Source: Psilocybe azurescens
Taxonomy: Eukaryota > Basidiomycota > Agaricomycetes > Agaricales > Agrocybaceae
Direction: 5' to 3'
NCBI GenBank assembly: GCA_023853785.1
Contig: JAJIRX010000500.1
Location: 310,001 to 374,000, forward strand
DNA: 64,000 bases
Part shown: in pieces, positions 4,193 to 49,145 of the stretch
Position numbering within the stretch: the first letter of the stretch is position 1
Layout: every line of letters begins with the position of its first letter
The notes under the pieces: model-generated
The model's input: only the letters and a program-made list of their open reading frames with translations
What the model was told of the DNA's origin: nothing
The model's database searches: none
Made by a program: the position numbers and the translations under genes

Positions 4193-7100
4193 ATGCGAGA
4201 GAAGAAGGAAGACAAACAGTCAGCTGCATTACCTGTCTACGAATCTCAGCCCCCACAATGGCTTCCAAAGATTCACGACACTGCGGACCTCGGTGAGAAT
4301 TATTCATACGATACTTACTAGGTCGGACTGTCCCTAATCTCTGCTGCCAGGATATGTTGGCTTTCATCCTCCACGACCGGGACAAGACGAAGATGGACTA
4401 TCTGAAACCAATGTCAAAAATGGTTTTATACTTGCACAAGCTGTTCCTGTGAGCTCGAGGATCGATATTTCTTCTGCACTGGAAACTGAATATGAGGCGG
4501 ATTCAGGTTGAATCATTTAGCGCTCAATCAATGATCAATGAGACTCTTCGCTCTACGGAGACGCTGTCAAAGTTGGAACAACTTATGAATGAGGTCTTCA
4601 TTCGTCGAGCAGACCGCATCCCTCCTGTTCCGTGCGTTAAAAATAACTCTGAATCACGACTCTTCCCGCTTACCACTATCCACAGACCATCGACCTTTCG
4701 TATTCCGACAAGGGTAACACTAAACGATGCAAAACGCCAAGCTTGGTTTGCTGATCTGGCGAATCCTGATGTTCCACTTCACAAATTGGGCAAAAGTGTT
4801 CCTCACGGCGCCAAAGGTCATGACTTGCTTGACCTTTTGCATTCAAATAACGTGGAAATCTCACGCGCAGTATGGTTTTTACGTGTGTTTGGGGCTAATG
4901 AAACGGTATTTATGAACCCGCCGATTTAATTGTTACCCTGACAAAAACCTCTATTACAGGCAGGCCTCAGAAACAAACCTTCATATGTGCCCACACAGTA
5001 TAGTATCGACTGGGCGAACATGGTGACTGGTTACATGAAAAAACAACTCATCGAAATTGCCCTTCCGAGTGCTCCCCGACCTGGATTAAATATCAAGCAA
5101 ACATTCAAAGGCGTCCTGGCTGATGCAGATACCCGTGAACGCTGGATGTCACGATTTATCTACTGGTTTGTCGCAATACTCTCTGATTTCAATTATAATA
5201 CAAGTTCATTCAACTTTTTAGTCTTAAATTACTTCGTACATTCTACTCCGAAGATCTGGTAGACCATCGGACATTTCTCACATGGCTTGTACAACAAATG
5301 ATTACATGCAATCTGGCCCAGGCCGGCTTCTTGACTCGTCTTGCAGATGAATATCTGTGTGATATCCTTTGTAGCCGTGCCTTGTCGAAGCCACTTGTTG
5401 AGGCTTGCCTTGCCAAGCTATCAGAGGTATGTAACTTCTAAACTCGGTTTGTGGCCGATGACTTGATCATTTTTAGATTCGTACGACATCTGCCCGTGAT
5501 TTTCTTAGAGATACCGAGGAATTGTTAAAAGTTCTTCTTCAGGTATGCGACGCATACATATGCTAGAGTGCTCAGTGGTTAACAATGCACCCCTTAGCGC
5601 GCTTGCTTGACTTTGCCAGATGCATTCGTTAGTCCCAAGATGTGGATCATGTATTCCACACTATTGGAAGATGTTATGTCTGAAGATGTAATAACTCTAC
5701 ATAATACCTCCTTCATCGACCCGACTGCCAGAGACATCAACTACATCATTAATAGCCATTTATCAGATATCAGAAAGAGAAACCAGGCCTTGTTATTTCT
5801 TGGTCCAATTGCGCAAGTATCAGCTCGTCTGGCCGCGTCCGTCTCCGATATCAAAGTAAGTCTCTCCTCTTTTATAACTAGTCAATGTTAAATCTATTAT
5901 AGTTGCTCAATGCTATATCTGCCGACACGGATATGAAAGCAATCTCTTACTTTAAAAGAGACCCCAATGACCCCAGTTTTAAAGACAAACTTGACCTGCT
6001 TCTCACTTGGAGTGTCACCCCCTTACAATATGGGGACCACCGACCTTATGCGGCCGTTACCTTGATACGCATTTGGCGCCAAAAGCCCGCGATCGAGCAA
6101 GCCGGCGTGACGCTTGTACTCCAAACGAATTTCTACAGGACCAACTTTTTGATTGGTTGGATTTGTCAGAGGTTGCAGGTGATAACAACAATATCCGACA
6201 TGTTGCTCTTTTATACGGCAAACTGGTCAAGCACGACATTTTTTCTTACGCCAGCTACATACAGCGACTTATCGCTCGAGGCGAAATAGGGCTGTCGAAT
6301 TCTCAGGTCCGCAGCTTTCCCGTTTCACGAGGATTCCTAACCGATCGACTTTTAGGGAACTTTTTCTCGCCATAGACAATTTCTTAGTTGGATCCCCTTA
6401 TTCAATTCTACTCCCTCGCTGATACATCAACGAAAGGTTATTCTGCACGGAGCAAGAGCTCGGGAAACGCCAGAAGACTTTACAGAGCGAGAAATTCGGA
6501 AGGAAATTCGAAGCGTGATTCCTGATATTTTTGAAGGTGCGATTGTCTACGTTCAACATTATATGCCTATCCTATAATGCCTTGACAAGGTGTTGGTGCC
6601 TCTTTGACCACATGGTCCTCTACAACTACTCTGCTGGAACAATGTAAGACATTGATGACTGCCACCCGTTTCGAACAAGTTAGGACTTTCAGGCAATGGT
6701 TAATCCCCGTTTTTAAAAAATATGTTACCAGGTATGTCTAATCGATTATCGCTTTCGAATTCTACTTACATTATGTTCTCAGGGCCGTGGTCGATCACGC
6801 AGTGATATACAAGTCCTACCTTGTCACCACGGAACTGATGACATCTACCGAGTGCTTCCATTCGGCACTCGATGTAAGTTCATCGCATCCCATTTTTCTT
6901 GCCTTTTTCGTATTCGTACTGACCATAATAAATCTCGTAGCTATCACTTTGTGTCCTCGAATATTCAAACGACGCGGATTCAATGAATTGTCTTCTGAAT
7001 ACCTTTGATCGATACGAGACAATATGGACCTGCATGGATGTGATGCCAACCATTGTCAAAGCCCTTGATACTGCACATCACGTTTGGAAACTGCGTGGTG

Positions 7101-9962
7101 TGCAGTCACGCCCTTACTCGTACTTCTGATGAAATTTGACAATGGACGACATCTGGAAGAATCCTCTCGCGAGAGGATCGCATCGGACATTGCTGCCTTC
7201 ACCTTGGTATGTGTGTTCTTCAAAATACAATCCGATTCATCTGATCATGTATACAGGCACTACAACCTATCGGCGAACAAACTGATCTTGTTCCTGGTGT
7301 TCTACCCGAAATTTTGCTTTTGGCGGGTGATCCTGACCCAAATGCGCCCTCTATTCTCGCAAACGGGTTGTGGATTAAATACCGTACATCTATGGGCTGG
7401 GCTTGGAAGGTCTGGGATAACACGGTTGCAAGTTTGCGACAAATTCCTAGTATGATGACCGACCTTGAAGATCGTCGTGGATGCGCATTGCGATATGGAA
7501 CATTTCTCTGGCGAGTGGACCAGCATTTACCCAATGGTCTCGATCATGATGTATTAGAATGGCTCATGGGGCCTGGAAATGCCGAAGTCATGGCACTTAG
7601 CATCGATGCGTGGGACGTGTTGAAAACCGTTTTATTATTTTTAATCGTACACGGCGCACTGAAAACGACAACTATTTTACAAGGATTGATCTATCCTGCG
7701 TGGCGACTGGGCGCTGTCGGGTCAATGGGCCAGTCATTGGTATCAGAAACATATCTTTCGGCCGCCAATAGCCTTTGCTTTAACCTACTCTTGCAAGAAG
7801 ATGCTACCAGCGGAACAGTACCTCCCACTGATTTGTTCGAGTTGCAAAGTATTCGGACAAGGCGCCAAACGGTCTATGACGAACCGCATTTCCCCCTCCT
7901 TGTCGCTGGCATCCCGATATTGATTTCTTTGGAAAATAACCCAGAAATACCCGAGGCTTTGAGGCTAGAGTCCACTGCTCTTCGCTGTCGCCTTTGCCAA
8001 GAGTCGGGTTTCCGACGTGGGGCGTATCGCAATTTGGAAATAATTCGAGATGCCTTTGAAAATTCACCGTTTTTGTTGGACGAAGACCCAAGTTCAGAGC
8101 ATTTGAGGAAAAGCGCCATCTCTGGTCTGAGAATGATATTATGCGATTCAATTGATGGTGTGTATTGCTGTTGTATACTTTGCGAGATATGAGCTCACGA
8201 TTGTACGCTAGAAACGAATATCTACGACTGGCCTGAACTGACCAGTTTGTTAACCCCGTGGAAAATTGCGGCAACCACAATTCAGATGCAATTGCAAGTT
8301 AAACAATTGGGTAGGGCTCTTAGTCACGAGTCTACTTCAGAGTGCGCGATTGTCAACTTGAACAAAATTGCGTCCATGTTGTTTCACCACACGAAAACCG
8401 CGGAAGAAGCTTACTACGTTGGGGAAATGGCACGAGGTGCTGATAGCACAGTCGCCGCAAAGTTCATTAATAACGGTTTCCAATGCATCGTGGAATTGTT
8501 CGCCAATTTTCAATCAGACCAAACTGGGCCAGGACAAGACAGTTTACGACGTGCTGGGGATTTGCTACGCATCCTTATACATGTTTCTCAGCCGTTCCGA
8601 GATGGCCCGACATTGCCGTCAGTAGATGCTCCAATTCATGAAGCGTTTGTTATGGCTCTCGACGACCAATTCAAAATTCTGGAGAAAGAGCTTTTGAATG
8701 ACCATATTCAGCCTCAGTCAAGAGAGAATCTTCTTCTTCTCATACGACTTCTACAGTTTATTCTCAGCTACAAGAATACATGGACCTCAAAGGTGAAAGA
8801 AAGTTATATCGGACTTTCTAACTTACTTTTTCGTCTTGCTTTGGTGAGCTCAATAGCTTAATAGTTTCTGGATAAAAGTGCGCTACTGACAGTTTGGCAG
8901 CATTACGCAGTCGAAGATGATTTCGATGACGACATATATCCTATACTTATTGATACCCTTTTGGTGCTTTTTGATGGTACGCGCTCTGAGTATTCATATA
9001 ATGTCTATCCATTCTCATCAATGCATTGGACAGAACTCCAGTGTGATTCCAAATCAATCGCGTTTGATCCATTCAGACATTACCCAAACCTATCTGCCGA
9101 TAATCTACCTACTGACATGCCCCCTGAACACCGGATCCAACTTACAACTCTACTCGCCCATAATCAGCCCCATTCACTGGTGATGCATTTGGTCAATACA
9201 CACCATGATGCGCAAGGCGACGTTGTATACGGAACACCTGTTGTGAACAAACCCTGGGAGTGGATAGAAAACCTTGGCGAACCTACTATCACAGACCCAA
9301 AGGAAGAAGACAAGGAAAGAGAGGAAAAACGGCGCTTGAAGGTCAAATATTTGATTAAAAATTCTGGCTCCATCTCGCTGGAGCATTTTGGTGCAAGATT
9401 TACGGGTGAAGGTCTGAAGCACGTCATACTCAATGACGAGCAAGCTCAGCAGGAAGATTGTGCGAAGTCATTTGAGGATGGGATGACGCAAAACATCTTT
9501 ATTCGGGATTGGCGGGAAACCCGTCTGGAATCGGAGCTCCCGCGGGAAGCGGCCACTCGCCTAAGGACTGAACTTGACTCTGAAGCCATGTTGTCCGTTG
9601 ATCCTCATAATCTTCAAGCCTTGCGGGCATCCCCAACGCCTTCCATAGTATCCCGATCTTCTACTCAAGCAACATCGTCGTCGTTGCACCAACAGCAGAG
9701 CCCCTCACAAACATCGCGCAGTAGAAACTCAAATTCGACGACGGTTCACGAAGTGATTGACGTCGACAATCTATCAGCGACTGGATCGTCATCACTCAAG
9801 GGACACGAATCTATGAAGCGCAAGGCATCTACAGCAGCTATCAGCGACGATGAGATTGAGATCATAGAGGGCCCTGTGATATCTCGCTCGACGGGAAGCA
9901 CGAAGAAGCAAAAGGCAGGAAAGGCCCCAGTAGCTGGGAAAACTAGACCGAGGAAGAAGTGA
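4193..9962 (+). CDS. MED12: Mediator complex subunit 12 (Srb8)
   Basis: Large subunit of the Mediator CDK8 kinase module, which represses or tunes RNA polymerase II transcription in the nucleus. N terminus has PPQWLPKIH then, after the intron 4293-4350, DLGYVGFHPPRPGQ. The Med12 domain follows around 4507-5260 (LANPDVPLHKLGKSVPHG; DLLDLLHSNNVEISRAVWFL; RNKPSYVPTQYSIDWANMV). The Srb8/LCEWAV-like helical region continues to about 9400. The tail is Ser/Gln-rich and basic and ends GKTRPRKK, with acidic-hydrophobic patches EVIDVD and EIEIIEG. More than ten small introns. Near 6085 the conserved stretch around TLIRIW and DRASRRDACTPNEF is read through only if one base is added. The ATG at 4193 is the first in frame; an upstream exon is possible. 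Confidence 0.85.
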
Positions 9963-36926: not shown

Positions 36927-37813
36927 TCATGCCTTCTCATATCCGCTCCAAGCTTGCGGGGCCACTGCATTGTCGGCCTTGACCACAATTATCATTCAGC
37001 AGCTTTCCTTGCTTTCATAGCCAGTGGGACATACATCAGAGCTTTCTTCAGCGCGCTTCTCTGTGTAGCCACTCCAGGCCTGAGGTACAACAGCGTCGTC
37101 AGCCTGACACCTTTGTTAATTAATCGTGCTGTTCATGGACAATAGTGTTGCTTACACCGGAGGTATCCTCAGCGCGTTTCTCGTTATACCCACTCCAGGC
37201 TTGAGGCGCTACAGCATCGTCCGCCTGAGGTCGTTGAACGGCTTTTCAATCAAGACAATCGGAGCAACCTACATCAGAGGCTTCTTCAGCACGTTTCTCG
37301 GTATAACCGCTCCAGGCTTGGGGGGCGACGGCGTCATCGGCCTGAAAATGTTCTGAGCATTTCCTCTGTTTAGCGATAAGATTAACGCACATCAGACGCT
37401 TCTTCCACGCGTTTCTCGTTATGTTCATTCCAGGCTCGGGGCGCAACAGCATCGTCGACCTGAAATCGAATTCAAAAACTTATCAACATTCAACAATTAC
37501 ACTTACATCGGAGATTTCTTCTACGTGTCTCTCATTGTACCCGCTCCAAGCTTGAGGTGCTACAGCATTGTCTGCCTGAATGCTGTTGAATACTTGTTGG
37601 GTTTATGACAACATCAAAACTGACATCGGATGTCTCTTCTGCGCGTTTCTTGTTATACCCGCTCCAGGCTTGCGGGGCCACCGCGTCGTCGGCCTATAAT
37701 CGGTCTAAGCATCTTTTCGACTGAAAATAGTCGCTCGATCTTACATCGGAGGCTTCTTCCTCCCGTTTTTCGTTGTACCCGCTCCATGTTTGTGGCGCGA
37801 CAGCATTGTCAGC
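36927..37813 (-). repeat. tandem array of repeat-coding exons
   Basis: Eight repeat exons start every 116-126 bp. Coding parts are strongly alike while the 47-57 nt introns between them have diverged, which shows selection on the encoded peptide and old exon duplications. All full units are exactly 69 nt. Confidence 0.85.
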
Positions 37814-38063
37814 CTACATCTAACGATTGGTGACATATGAATCGAGATAAATCTTAACTTACGGTGGCCTCTTCGCGTTTCCAGACCTGATTGTTGCGTG
37901 CTTCGAATGCGTTGTGGACCTGGTCGTTGAACATTTAGTATCAATGCATCATAATCTGTGCCGTTATCACCTTAGACAATCTGAAGTCTGAGGGTGGTGT
38001 CGGTACAGCGTTGACCATGGTAACAAGCAGGACGGCAGTTAGGAGAGCGTTGAAGCCCTTCAT
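36927..38063 (-). CDS. secreted multi-core peptide precursor with kexin (KR) sites; candidate RiPP precursor
   Basis: Ten exons, all introns phase 0, give 227 aa: 37971-38063, 37863-37919, then seven 69-nt exons (37745-37813, 37625-37693, 37507-37575, 37391-37459, 37273-37341, 37156-37224, 37035-37103) and 36927-36977. Exon 1 is a signal peptide (MKGFNALLTAVLLVTMVNA). Exon 2 ends in a first cleavage site, WKREEAT. Each 69-nt exon encodes one 23-residue unit of the form A-D-[ND]-A-V-A-P-Q-A-W-S-G-Y-N-E-K-R followed by an acidic spacer (AEEASD). Kex2 would cut after KR in the secretory pathway, releasing about 21-residue units; the acidic, Ala-containing spacers resemble those trimmed by Ste13-type peptidases. 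Exon 5 has RH in place of KR; the last unit ends YEKA. No frame correction is needed. A DUF3328 gene lies divergently next to it. A repellent- or pheromone-like linear peptide is the alternative to a cyclic RiPP. Confidence 0.85.
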
Positions 38064-38118
38064 CTTGGTATTGGGAAATACAAATATTCCGATGATTATC
38101 GCTCCAAGTTTTATGTCG

Positions 38119-38126
38119 CCTTTATA
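38119..38126 (-). promoter_or_regulatory. TATA-like box of the peptide precursor gene
   Basis: On the minus strand the sequence reads TATAAAGG, about 56 bp upstream of the start codon at 38063. Position and sequence fit a core promoter. Confidence 0.45.
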
Positions 38127-38997
38127 CATTCTTCTTTCGGCACAAATTCTGGGTCCTAATTTTTGGTGTGTACTCTTTAGACTCTGGCTCAACCCACCTG
38201 ACTACCTCGTCTTCCCAAAATCACCCATGCCGGTTTTGGAGGTCGCCGACTTTACTCGTAAACCCCGCATTGTAGGCTTCCCTTAGTGATATCCATCACC
38301 CTCGTTGAAAGATTCATGAGCACAATCACGTCGCAGAAGCTCGTCTAAGTGCAGCAGACTGCCATGAATGGGCGTACCACGTCCAAAATCGTTCTAGTTC
38401 TGCCACCCGGCGTTTGGAAGCTTAGTTTATCTTTCAGTGTGTGTGGGACAAAACTGGTCAGTAGATATCGGCCTAACTTTGCTTCCAGGCTGGTGGAACC
38501 TAAGATATACTTTCAAGGTACTTTCAATCTTAACATCAGCTAGTTCCCATATACTCAAATACGTGTAAGGACAAAAACGGGAAGAATAATTTATTTTGGG
38601 TATAACATATCCTCAACTCGACATGCAGGTGTTCTGACTTGTCATAATGCCTGTAAAACCCAACCCATCTCGAATATCAGCACTTCTTGTTTTCCCGCCT
38701 TTTCTCTGGTCTACGGTCTTCTTTTACTTGGGAGATCGATGGTTCAGCACTGCTAACTACCCATTCATTTACTTTCGATCCTCTCCTTTGAACTCGTTAT
38801 CCCCACGCACGATCTCCACCTCGTTGAGTAACCCAACCCTCCGCCTTGGGCGGTAAATGCATGCCACGAGATAACGACTTCGTCAGGATCAGATTCTCAA
38901 TAGGTAATGGTTCAACCTTATTCGAAAGTTGGGGCATGCGCTGCCAATGGATCCCCATTTTCATTTTGTCACGCTCGCTCCATTTTCACCTCGATGG

Positions 38998-39006
38998 TAT
39001 ATAATA
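38998..39006 (+). promoter_or_regulatory. TATA box of the UstYa-like gene
   Basis: TATATAATA, 35-43 bp before the ATG at 39041. A clear core-promoter element for this gene-dense genome. Confidence 0.5.
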
Positions 39007-39040
39007 AGAACGACGACCTACCTCGGGTGGGTTTTAAAGC

Positions 39041-39983
39041 ATGAAATCTGAATCGCCTTATCATCCCATACTCCAAGATTCTCTGGAGGACCTTTCTTTG
39101 CTCAAATATAGTGACTCGGACAATGACTGCTCGACACCGCAAACTTGCTCAAACTCCAGCTGCCTTCGTAAATTCCGTTGGTTGATAGCAGCACTCTGCT
39201 TTCAAACTATTGTCATATTGTCATTATCTGGCATGGCAGTCGGGTTTTATTCTCACCGAAATCGTGTCGATATATCCTCGACGTATCTGTATTGTAAGTG
39301 AACTGCGACGCATTCAATACAAGCATGGTTCACTGAATCTGAAGTCCAGCCCCGGTTCAACATTTGATCACCTACGAGAATAAGGTGTTCCGCGAAGGGT
39401 TCGGTTCCGACGTCAGCCTCTATCAGCAGCTTCCTTCCCCGGAGGTTGACAGTGCTTGGGAGAGGCTGTATGATTGTATGTTGCCGTCTTTATATTACAC
39501 ATAATTCTATACTAAAATTTCTCCTTTCACTAGTTGGGGTATCGAGAATAACCAAAGAAGAAGCCTCCAAGCTCGTAAATCAAACATATCGATTACCAGG
39601 AGATGAAGATCATTATGTGGTGCATCTCGATGTCTTTCATCAATTGCATTGTCTGGTTGGTCGTTGCTTTATTTGCAGTCTGACCCCAGTATTCTGACCA
39701 TTGTGTCTGACAGAACATGTTACGAAAGGCCCTTCACCCAGATTACTACAAGGAAGGGATGCATATGAATAAACAACATTTGGACCACTGTGTTGAAAAT
39801 ATCCGCCAGTCTTTGATCTGCTCTGCCGACGTAACCCCACTTGTTTGGCAATGGGTGGACAGAGTCCAGGAGGTGCGAATAACAGGCAACATTATGCACA
39901 AATGCCGGGATTATGACAAAATTATGGAATGGGGGTTGGAACATCGCCTTAATCACGAACTCAACTTCACTGGGTTCCATTAG
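39041..39983 (+). CDS. DUF3328 / UstYa-family oxidase-like protein
   Basis: Four exons (39041-39293, 39350-39475, 39534-39655, 39714-39983) give 256 aa with no frame problem. A cytosolic N terminus (MKSESPYHPILQDSLEDLSL) precedes one membrane helix (WLIAALCFQTIVILSLSGMA). The lumenal domain has the family's two metal-binding-type motifs: HLDVFHQLHCL and HLDHCVENIRQSLICSADVT (both HxxHC), plus PLVWQW. In Aspergillus and relatives UstYa/UstYb proteins are needed for oxidative cyclisation of ribosomal peptides (ustiloxin, asperipin, phomopsin). It faces away from the KR-repeat precursor across 977 bp, which supports a joint biosynthetic job. Family call is strong; reaction is inferred. The lumenal topology would place it in the same secretory compartment as the precursor. 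Confidence 0.88.
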
Positions 39984-40321: not shown

Positions 40322-41075
40322 ATGTTTCCTCTTGCTCTTTTCCCCACTGTTCCAGACAATCTGCAAGATATGAAGTACGCAGCATCGCAGACCTGTCGAG
40401 CTTGGTTGTCGCTAACAGATCATTCCAGAGCTCGCGACGCCCTGGTGTATCAGAATACTTTTATGAAGGTAACTCTGGGGTGTTCTGCTCGTCACTGGTG
40501 TAGGTGTTGATCAACGTTCGCTGCACAGAATGCCCTCATTCGTGCTTTGAATATCACATACGAGATGGCCCGTAACATCGAGGCCGTACACCCTGAATTT
40601 TGCTCGTTTATGGCCTACATGGAGACTGTATGCAACATACTCAGTCTACATCTTGAAGGTGAGAATGTCACGGGTCGATCGCAAGGACCCATGCTGACAG
40701 TAGTATACTTGCGCAGGAGACGACGTATTCTTCCAAGCACTCTCCCAGCACTGCAATGAAGTTGCCGCAGTGAACAACGAAATTGCCATTGCATTTCGAA
40801 AAGACCTTAACTCCTTGTTAGGCTTGATTGGGGAGTGGATCGAGGTATGTACACAACCTATTCGACGTGAAGTTCATTAGTAACTATTCATCAATTAGAG
40901 TCCTGATTCGTACCAACACGCTCGCCTCCAGGATTGTTTGAAGAAGATAGAGTCAAGCATTACCGAAGTATTGCATACACAAGTGAGCCCGAACCATCAG
41001 ACGACTTTATCCCATTGTATGACAATTGTAAGAAGATGTCCAGATTCCGAGGTGACGCGTTGCCAAATTCGATAG
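40322..41075 (+). CDS. helical protein of unknown function beside the peptide locus
   Basis: Not recognised. Four exons with consistent splice phases give about 190 aa: MFPLALFPTVPDNLQDMKYA, SRARDALVYQNTFMK, then NALIRALNITYEMARNIEAV, FMAYMETVCNILSLHLEG, DDVFFQALSQHCNEVAAVNN, LNSLLGLIGEWIESPDS and LQDCLKKIESSITEVLHTQ. It is almost wholly helical with a few Cys and no clear signal peptide or membrane span. The 3' end is uncertain: the frame used stops at TAG 41073-41075; other frames stay open a little further. Located 340 bp after the UstYa-like gene, same strand; might belong to the same cluster. Confidence 0.5.
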
Positions 41076-41646
41076 ATGACGAGACATTGAGCGTGCTTGT
41101 TAGAGGTGTGTCGAGCCTCCTAAGTATTGAGCCCTCAATTGATCAATGCTTTCCAGAGAACATGATTTGGTTCGGATCAAGGGTTGATATCGCAATTTTA
41201 CTGCCGTAAGCGAAAGTGTATGTTCACTGCGGTCAACATGGAACCCCTGAAATTCGGAACAGATTTTGCACATCGCACCATGACCCACTGACTTCGAAGT
41301 ACTGGCCACCTGTCACCTCAGACGCGATTGAAGCAATTCCTGAGCTGGCCAGGGTCCATCCCCAGTACGTCGGCTATCTAGGCATCAACAAAAGCTAATT
41401 TCTGTCCGTTGTAGCCTCTGGAAGTTTGCTCCATTTGATCCTGTCACTAGAAATGCAACGGCTGTGGCACTCTGAGGGTGTGCCTTCAGGGATGGTGCTG
41501 AAGCAGGATATGACACCAAATCGTTTTCTCAAACAACTTTCATGACAAATCTTGAGTTGAGATAATTTCTATAATGTGTTTGGGCAATAATATCGATACA
41601 GAGATTGTAATATACATCAGACCTTGCAGCTGTTTCCCGTGTGCCA
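41076..41646. other. possible gene remnant, unresolved
   Basis: Contains short coding-like pieces, for example YWPPVTSDAIEAIPELARVH near 41310 and LWKFAPFDPVTRNATAVAL near 41420, that can be joined across a putative intron but not into a full gene. It could be the 3' part of the upstream gene or a relic of another. Too weak to call. Confidence 0.25.
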
Positions 41647-48503: not shown

Positions 48504-48617
48504 GGATAAATTCCAAATGCAGGTCCAACTTACTTTGAACATTCGTACAGCCACCACATCCATTTTATTCCCATAGCAACATAATTGAAGCATGTCATAA
48601 GTAACTCGAATCTCTTC
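48504..48617. promoter_or_regulatory. 114-bp bidirectional promoter
   Basis: The start codons of the coiled-coil gene (minus) and the RapZ-like gene (plus) are only 114 bp apart, so transcription of both must begin here or within 5' coding parts. Confidence 0.5.
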
Positions 48618-49145
48618 ATGTCTAACGACCATGACTATCCTTACAGTTCTCATGGCCAGTTATTTAAAAACACAAACCATGCGGCCAGTTTAGAAAACGA
48701 TCTACCAACCATTAAAATCACTTCGTTCGGTCATCGTCGTGGTCCACTGCTTCCAACCCCTGACTTATCATTCGACTGTCGTGCATTGCCAAACCCTCCA
48801 AAAAACGTTCGGACTGGCCACACAGGTCTCTCCAAAGCTCTCAGAGATGCTTTGTTCTCAAAAGAGGAGGTCCAAAGGCGGTTTCAAGATATTTGTACGT
48901 TTATCAACGCGCACATACAGCAAGCCCAAGCCAACGGCGAACAGAGTATAAGTGTCGGCGTTTTTTGCGAGCTAGGAAAGCATCGCAGTGTTTCCATGGT
49001 AGAGCAGCTGGGACAGACTCGTTTCAATGGCTGGAATGTCGTTGTTGAACATCGTGACGTTCATCTTAGACGCTCAAATCAGAAGAACAAACTCAGAAGA
49101 GATCGTCACAGCGAAGAGGACAATTCAGATTCAGATAAACTGTAG
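48618..49145 (+). CDS. RapZ C-terminal-domain-like protein
   Basis: Single-exon protein of 175 aa. The core follows the C-terminal domain of bacterial RapZ (the RNA-binding adaptor for RNase E): ITSFGHRRGPLLPTPDLSFD, CRALPNPP, then the ISVGVFCELGKHRSVSMVEQ block with the conserved GxHRSV. The C-terminal tail is basic then acidic (RRSNQKNKLRRDRHSEEDNS). It lacks the N-terminal P-loop kinase-like half of RapZ. Stand-alone RapZ-C proteins occur in fungi; function unknown. The start MSNDHDYPYSS is the first ATG in frame. Confidence 0.75.
   Translation: MSNDHDYPYSSHGQLFKNTNHAASLENDLPTIKITSFGHRRGPLLPTPDLSFDCRALPNPPKNVRTGHTGLSKALRDALFSKEEVQRRFQDICTFINAHIQQAQANGEQSISVGVFCELGKHRSVSMVEQLGQTRFNGWNVVVEHRDVHLRRSNQKNKLRRDRHSEEDNSDSDKL

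Follow-up and report, generated by a model that had tools for sequence, protein, structure and literature searches.

A 64,000-nucleotide stretch of Psilocybe azurescens DNA, here called the window, carries a peptide precursor gene in which seven copies of the core each occupy a separate exon; a divergently oriented gene for a UstYa-family protein lies beside it. The locus probably encodes an agaric pathway for secreted peptides that is dikaritin-like (UstYa-type) and in which the UstYa protein oxidizes the core. The pairing itself is of a known kind, since KEP-DUF3328 pairs are on record in Basidiomycota (PMC7329392). The new element is the one-core-per-exon build, which is repeated at a second, unrelated precursor where the number of exons varies.

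Structure of the repeat precursor gene

The initial annotation had proposed an intact KR-repeat precursor gene and an intact UstYa-family gene at this site, and both are borne out. With splice sites deduced from the DNA letters alone, the gene spans positions 36927-38063 on the reverse strand and has 10 exons, 684 nt when spliced, that encode 227 amino acids without a stop codon or frame break. The predicted protein consists of a hydrophobic leader, a short stretch containing WKR, and then eight copies of ADDAVAPQAWSGYNEKRAEEASD. Near-identical cores are set between dibasic sites, as is characteristic of dikaritin precursors, and the combination of repeats with Kex2 sites is that of KEPs, with secretion judged from the sequence alone.

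Exon 1 (37971..38063; MKGFNALLTAVLLVTMVNAVPTPPSDFRLSK) encodes the hydrophobic N-terminus, MKGFNALLTAVLLVTMVNA, which by eye resembles a signal peptide. Exon 2 (37863..37919; VHNAFEARNNQVWKREEAT) supplies the leader segment with the first KR. The next seven exons, ADNAVAPQTWSGYNEKREEEASD (37745..37813), ADDAVAPQAWSGYNKKRAEETSD (37625..37693), ADNAVAPQAWSGYNERHVEEISD (37507..37575), VDDAVAPRAWNEHNEKRVEEASD (37391..37459), ADDAVAPQAWSGYTEKRAEEASD (37273..37341), ADDAVAPQAWSGYNEKRAEDTSG (37156..37224) and ADDAVVPQAWSGYTEKRAEESSD (37035..37103), are each 69 nt long and in phase 0, are preceded by AG and followed by GT, and hold one copy of the repeat. Any one of them could therefore be gained or lost without breaking the reading frame. 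This placement of seven cores on separate 69-nt exons had not been mentioned in the initial annotation. The gene ends with ADNAVAPQAWSGYEKA and the stop codon (36927..36977). Its introns measure 47-57 nt, and the last of them has the acceptor AAG instead of [CT]AG.

The precursor has seven KR sites, one in the leader and one after each of six of the eight copies. Copy 3 has lost its KR because ERH replaces EKR, and in copy 4 WNEH replaces WSGY. The residues that follow the KR sites are EEAT, EEEA, AEET, VEEA, AEEA, AEDT and AEES. A STE13-type XA/XP run follows none of the seven sites, and identity as an alpha-pheromone precursor was rejected because this signature is missing. Weak Pfam matches of the precursor to Sulfotransfer_2, HSP9_HSP12, SpoIID and DUF7725 were also rejected, since they fall below the curated cut-offs.

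The UstYa-family gene and its neighborhood

The start codons of the precursor and UstYa genes are separated by a divergent intergenic region of 977 bp (38064..39040), which confirms the head-to-head arrangement described earlier. The assignment to the DUF3328/UstYa family also holds: its match to PF11807 (E=1.3e-54) covers positions 6-220 of the 220 in the profile. Both predicted HxxHC motifs are present (HQLHC, residue 162; HLDHC, residue 189). The gene occupies four exons on the forward strand (39041-39983), and the spliced product is a full-length protein of 256 amino acids. Exon 1 (39041..39293) encodes an N-terminal hydrophobic stretch and is followed by exon 2 (39350..39475); exon 3 (39534..39655) carries HQLHC, and exon 4 (39714..39983) carries HLDHC and runs to the stop codon.

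The closest of the 36 UstYa relatives that were found come from Flammula alnicola (63% identity) and Panaeolus cyanescens (58%), both members of the Agaricales. An alignment of the window protein with 12 relatives has 28 invariant columns among the 13 proteins; these include HxLHCLNxxR and, in the second motif, the second H and the C. For P0001, the relative from Flammula, structure prediction gave a model with a mean pLDDT of 70.8, a pTM of 0.55 and a long helix at residues 73-104, which we read as a putative membrane anchor. Foldseek comparison of the P0001 model to the PDB returned 119 matches, none with E<=0.001, so fold comparison contributes no evidence. The UstYa sequence itself has a single match among PDB chains (E 0.69). 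Among viral contigs searched for a UstYa relative, three stretches fitted a pattern, and none of the three was confirmed.

Downstream of the UstYa gene lies another gene on the forward strand (40322..41206, end approximate), represented by a partial model without a Pfam family. It could be a member of the pathway. In Agrocybe chaxingu, a single gene model (P0009) runs from a UstYa sequence into a homolog of this gene, with 42% identity over 163 positions between the start of the window model and the C-terminal part of P0009. Tyrosinase, P450, methyltransferase and peptidase families were all missing by Pfam from the 39 window ORFs scanned between 22.1 and 57.8 kb. One ORF of the window (48585-49142) matches the RapZ C-terminal domain PF22740 with E=6.9e-27, which is surprising in a fungus.

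Divergence and constancy of the repeat copies

The seven repeat exons have a mean pairwise identity of 0.75, as compared to 0.33 for the introns just upstream and 0.31 for those just downstream. Of the 366 pairwise differences among the repeat exons, 40, 83 and 243 fall at codon positions 1, 2 and 3, respectively. Similarly, 21 of 23 third positions are variable, versus 16 of 46 others. From this third-position bias and the gap between exon and intron identity, we read the repeat exons as likely old duplicates held by selection at the protein level. Counts by codon position are preferred over dN/dS, because NG86 values (0.14 and 3.8) were usable for 12 of 21 pairs and the remaining nine were undefined.

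Core constancy was scored over 11 copies, comprising the eight from the window and one each from P0037, P0038 and P0039 (see below), of which P0038 is close to window copy 5. The Trp is found in 11 of 11, as are D2, A4, V5 and P7. The Tyr is retained in 10 of 11; because Q, S and G reach the same level, Tyr is not singled out by constancy alone.

Relatives of the precursor and of the gene pair

When the full-length precursor was compared to 5.8 billion proteins, none of the best 8000 candidates by common words reached E<=1. A short repeat query yielded three proteins with E<=10 among 26 candidates, all from source 'lgn', which we take to be Logan assemblies. These are P0037 (E 2.6e-11, 3903-bp contig), P0038 (E 4.7e-5, 2851-bp contig) and P0039 (E 0.17, weak by score, 1043-bp contig). 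Each has one repeat amid unrelated letters, directly preceded by Q, which fits a CAG acceptor. P0038 agrees in almost every letter with the window ORF around repeat 5 and thus comes from a very near relative. In P0039, a sequence close to that of exon 2 (EARTNQVWKREEAT) is followed by 17 residues and then by the repeat; we read these 17 residues as a probable intron translated in frame.

The UstYa fragment P0033 and the repeat exon P0037 are both from contigs of 3903 bp. The equal size is indirect evidence that they lie on one contig. This use of equal sizes is supported by P0015 and P0019, which are parts of one UstYa gene and both come from contigs of 1539 bp. Conservation of the pair in other genomes, which the initial annotation had named as a point to check, holds in part. 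The UstYa gene and its downstream neighbor are kept together in Agrocybe chaxingu and related repeat exons occur on three other contigs, but the precursor side was visible in no named species, and no relative of it from an annotated genome was found among the protein-database entries searched.

UstYa loci and repeat arrays across the genome

The 70.4-Mb assembly contains at least 28 exon-level matches to PF11807 on at least 13 contigs. KR/RR-anchored repeats were sought in 15 stretches around UstYa genes outside the window. Arrays were found beside UstYa genes on C148, C664 and C665, which share a second precursor type, and on C623 and C625, which share a third. No array with at least three copies lies near the UstYa genes of C438, C40, C538, C500, C723, C250 or C641. 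With near-identical contigs counted once, three of 10 UstYa loci besides the window bear an array, or four of 11 when the window is included.

Sixteen control stretches were scanned in the same way (six 9-kb tiles of the window and 10 others of 7-8 kb each); the UstYa stretches, at 6.5-9.9 kb, are longer than most of them. Under the first array rule one control was positive (Fisher p=0.14), and one tile overlapped the locus by 274 bp. The second rule requires at least three copies at steps of at most 400 nt, with windows on both sides of the dibasic site. It leaves the same loci positive and none of 16 non-overlapping controls (3/10 versus 0/16, p=0.046), and it was chosen after the false positive L045 had been seen, so that the enrichment of arrays at UstYa loci is weak. 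Clusters of repeats in different frames or on the opposite strand overlap the true arrays in position and were set aside. Under the first rule, control L045 (C500:550001-558000) has five clusters of three or four copies in several frames, mostly spaced more than 1 kb apart with a few at 0.3-0.5 kb, and its repeats are probably duplicated DNA.

The second precursor type is built of the unit DLTKRVAHVYGVDADE, with Tyr-containing cores of the form VAHVYGVDADE. It has 14 copies in L023 (C148; 6566-8226) and 13 in L025 (C665; about 7040-8510). Most copies reside singly in 48-nt phase-0 exons, with 12 such exons at C148 and 10 at C665, and the first repeat exon holds two copies at C148 and three at C665. 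Third positions account for 8.65 of the 10.4 differences per pair among the C148 copies. The two loci may be alleles or may stem from a recent duplication; to the left of the array, identity between them is 98.4% across 6.8 kb, and within and after it 95%. Their alignment blocks overlap at L025 7914-7965, covering the exon at 7905-7952. An overlap of this sort over one exon is expected if recombination between repeat exons took out two of them. The second type is the strongest support for the exon-per-core reading.

The third type, found in L028 (C623; 6317 to about 7273) and on the reverse strand of L029 (C625; about 6156-7652), has repeats EQGTSFRRGSDA (EQGTSFRR) with no Trp and no Tyr, and the array ends precisely at EQGTSF-stop. 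Its layout is mixed, with a large exon that holds many in-frame copies and small exons that hold one or two. A recurrent CAG-AGA-GTAAG/GTACG occurs in its introns at L028 7182 and on the reverse strand of L029 at 7133, 7313 and 7559. Judged by its letters, this is a possible 3-nt micro-exon that would keep the frame whether used or skipped.

Within its own genome the first precursor type matches the window locus only, and the second matches C148, C664 and C665 only. The third matches C623 and C625 at E<=1e-7 and three other contigs at E 0.14-0.97, which we take to be chance matches. These three aside, all three precursor types occur beside UstYa genes only.

Proposed pathway and alternative explanations

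The precursor would enter the secretory path, where Kex2 would cleave after KR and Kex1 would remove the basic ends. Such Kex2 processing is predicted with high confidence from the arrangement of the sites. The expected release is five peptides of 19-21 residues, a C-terminal 22-mer and a 44-mer fusion due to the lost KR of copy 3. Calculated masses of linear peptides are M 2194.893 for AEEASDADDAVAPQAWSGYNE and M 2209.929 for VEEASDADDAVAPQAWSGYTE. The UstYa protein, held by its N-terminal helix, would oxidize the core by a cross-link or another two-electron oxidation, with the Trp and/or Tyr of WSGY as the likeliest sites. That the UstYa protein of the window acts on the core of the window is judged fairly probable. 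The array presumably evolves through gain and loss of entire in-frame exons, as at the sister locus.

The dikaritin-like reading is supported by the exon structure, the coding constraint and the full-length UstYa protein with both motifs, together with the constancy of Trp and Tyr, the 3903-bp equality, the arrays beside other UstYa genes and the difference in exon number between C148 and C665. It is weakened by the other cluster enzymes not being found in the 39 window ORFs, by a third precursor type without Trp or Tyr and by the weak array enrichment. It is further weakened by two literature observations that would suit an ordinary Kex2-processed repeat protein yielding linear signaling or defense peptides, with an adjoining UstYa protein that is unrelated or serves another substrate. 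Peptides of agaric KEPs have been detected in linear or minimally modified form, several with a terminal Trp (PMC9769878), and only 6.1% of basidiomycete KEPs (103 of 1680) have a DUF3328 gene nearby (PMC7329392). We nonetheless consider this explanation unlikely, because three precursor types adjoin UstYa genes and match nowhere else at E<0.1, the head-to-head gap is less than 1 kb, a relative shows equal 3903-bp contigs, and the STE13-type XA/XP run after KR is missing.

A possible but doubtful sub-case, whose odds overlap those of the dikaritin-like reading, is that the UstYa protein modifies the core by hydroxylation, desaturation or halogenation and forms no Trp/Tyr cross-link. Ether-bond formation in ustiloxins and hydroxylation or chlorination in cyclochlorotine pathways are both reported for DUF3328 proteins (PMC12048977), and the third precursor type, with neither Trp nor Tyr, favors chemistry of this kind. 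However, Trp is invariant in the first type and Tyr nearly so (at the level of Q, S and G), and Tyr occurs in 65.6% of the repeats of KEPs near DUF3328 genes versus 38.2% of other repeats (PMC7329392). It is very improbable that the repeat gene is decaying and has little or no functional product. The lost KR of copy 3, the lost WSGY of copy 4 and the unusual last acceptor might be taken as signs of decay, but 10 exons free of stops and frame breaks, a strong third-position bias and the retention of repeat exons on other contigs are opposed to it.

Comparison to known systems

Dikaritins such as ustiloxins, phomopsins and asperipin-2a likewise derive from a multi-core dibasic precursor, secreted as is predicted here, adjoining a UstYa/DUF3328 protein with two HxxHC motifs; the enzyme is class-defining and its two motifs serve as a marker (PMC12048977). 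Asperipin-2a also resembles the present locus in having a single UstYa gene (PMC7329392). The locus described here differs in having agaric relatives, the core AVAPQAWSGY and one core per exon, and no tyrosinase or peptidase was found among the ORFs scanned. Not every known dikaritin pathway has a tyrosinase, a methyltransferase and a peptidase, and in a lichen survey a repeated precursor was seen in neither of its two clans (PMC12048977).

Basidiomycete KEPs with DUF3328 genes share the same pairing within the same phylum. Overall, DUF3328 genes lie near 1758 of 7878 KEPs, and the low basidiomycete share has been tentatively attributed to cyclization hardly occurring or to a differing enzyme motif (PMC7329392). 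The same article lists type P-3 KEPs, in which W is accompanied by P, from Fonsecaea, Cladophialophora, Galerina, Psilocybe and Coprinellus. Sixteen UstYa-like genes are reported in Pleurotus (PMC8893723). The agaric KEPs with linear peptides also have Kex2-type repeat precursors with Trp in some cores (PMC9769878), whereas the precursor described here has a UstYa neighbor and no XA/XP run after KR.

In the open-licence literature, searched by title and abstract, no report of an exon-per-core structure was found, and the excerpts of PMC7329392, PMC9769878, PMC8893723, PMC12048977, PMC6339444 and PMC9233826 do not describe one. The same literature yielded no chemically characterized UstYa-type RiPP from a mushroom. 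We tentatively suggest that agarics use a class of UstYa-linked precursors with mostly one symmetric phase-0 mini-exon per core, in which the number and set of cores shift by exon gain or loss and possibly by skipping. Such pathways might be under-counted in surveys of annotated proteins, if gene callers overlook small exons, and modified mushroom RiPPs might then be much commoner than 6% of KEPs. The exon-per-core build offers a testable reason for precursors being missed beside UstYa genes, with the lichen survey and the low basidiomycete share as cases in point, and a means of altering core number with the reading frame kept. In this genome, the cores are defined at residue level for all three precursor types linked to UstYa.

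Secreted proteins are also made from short symmetric exons in the micro-exon genes of schistosomes. Unlike the precursor described here, those genes do not encode one repeated core and have no Kex2/UstYa pathway.
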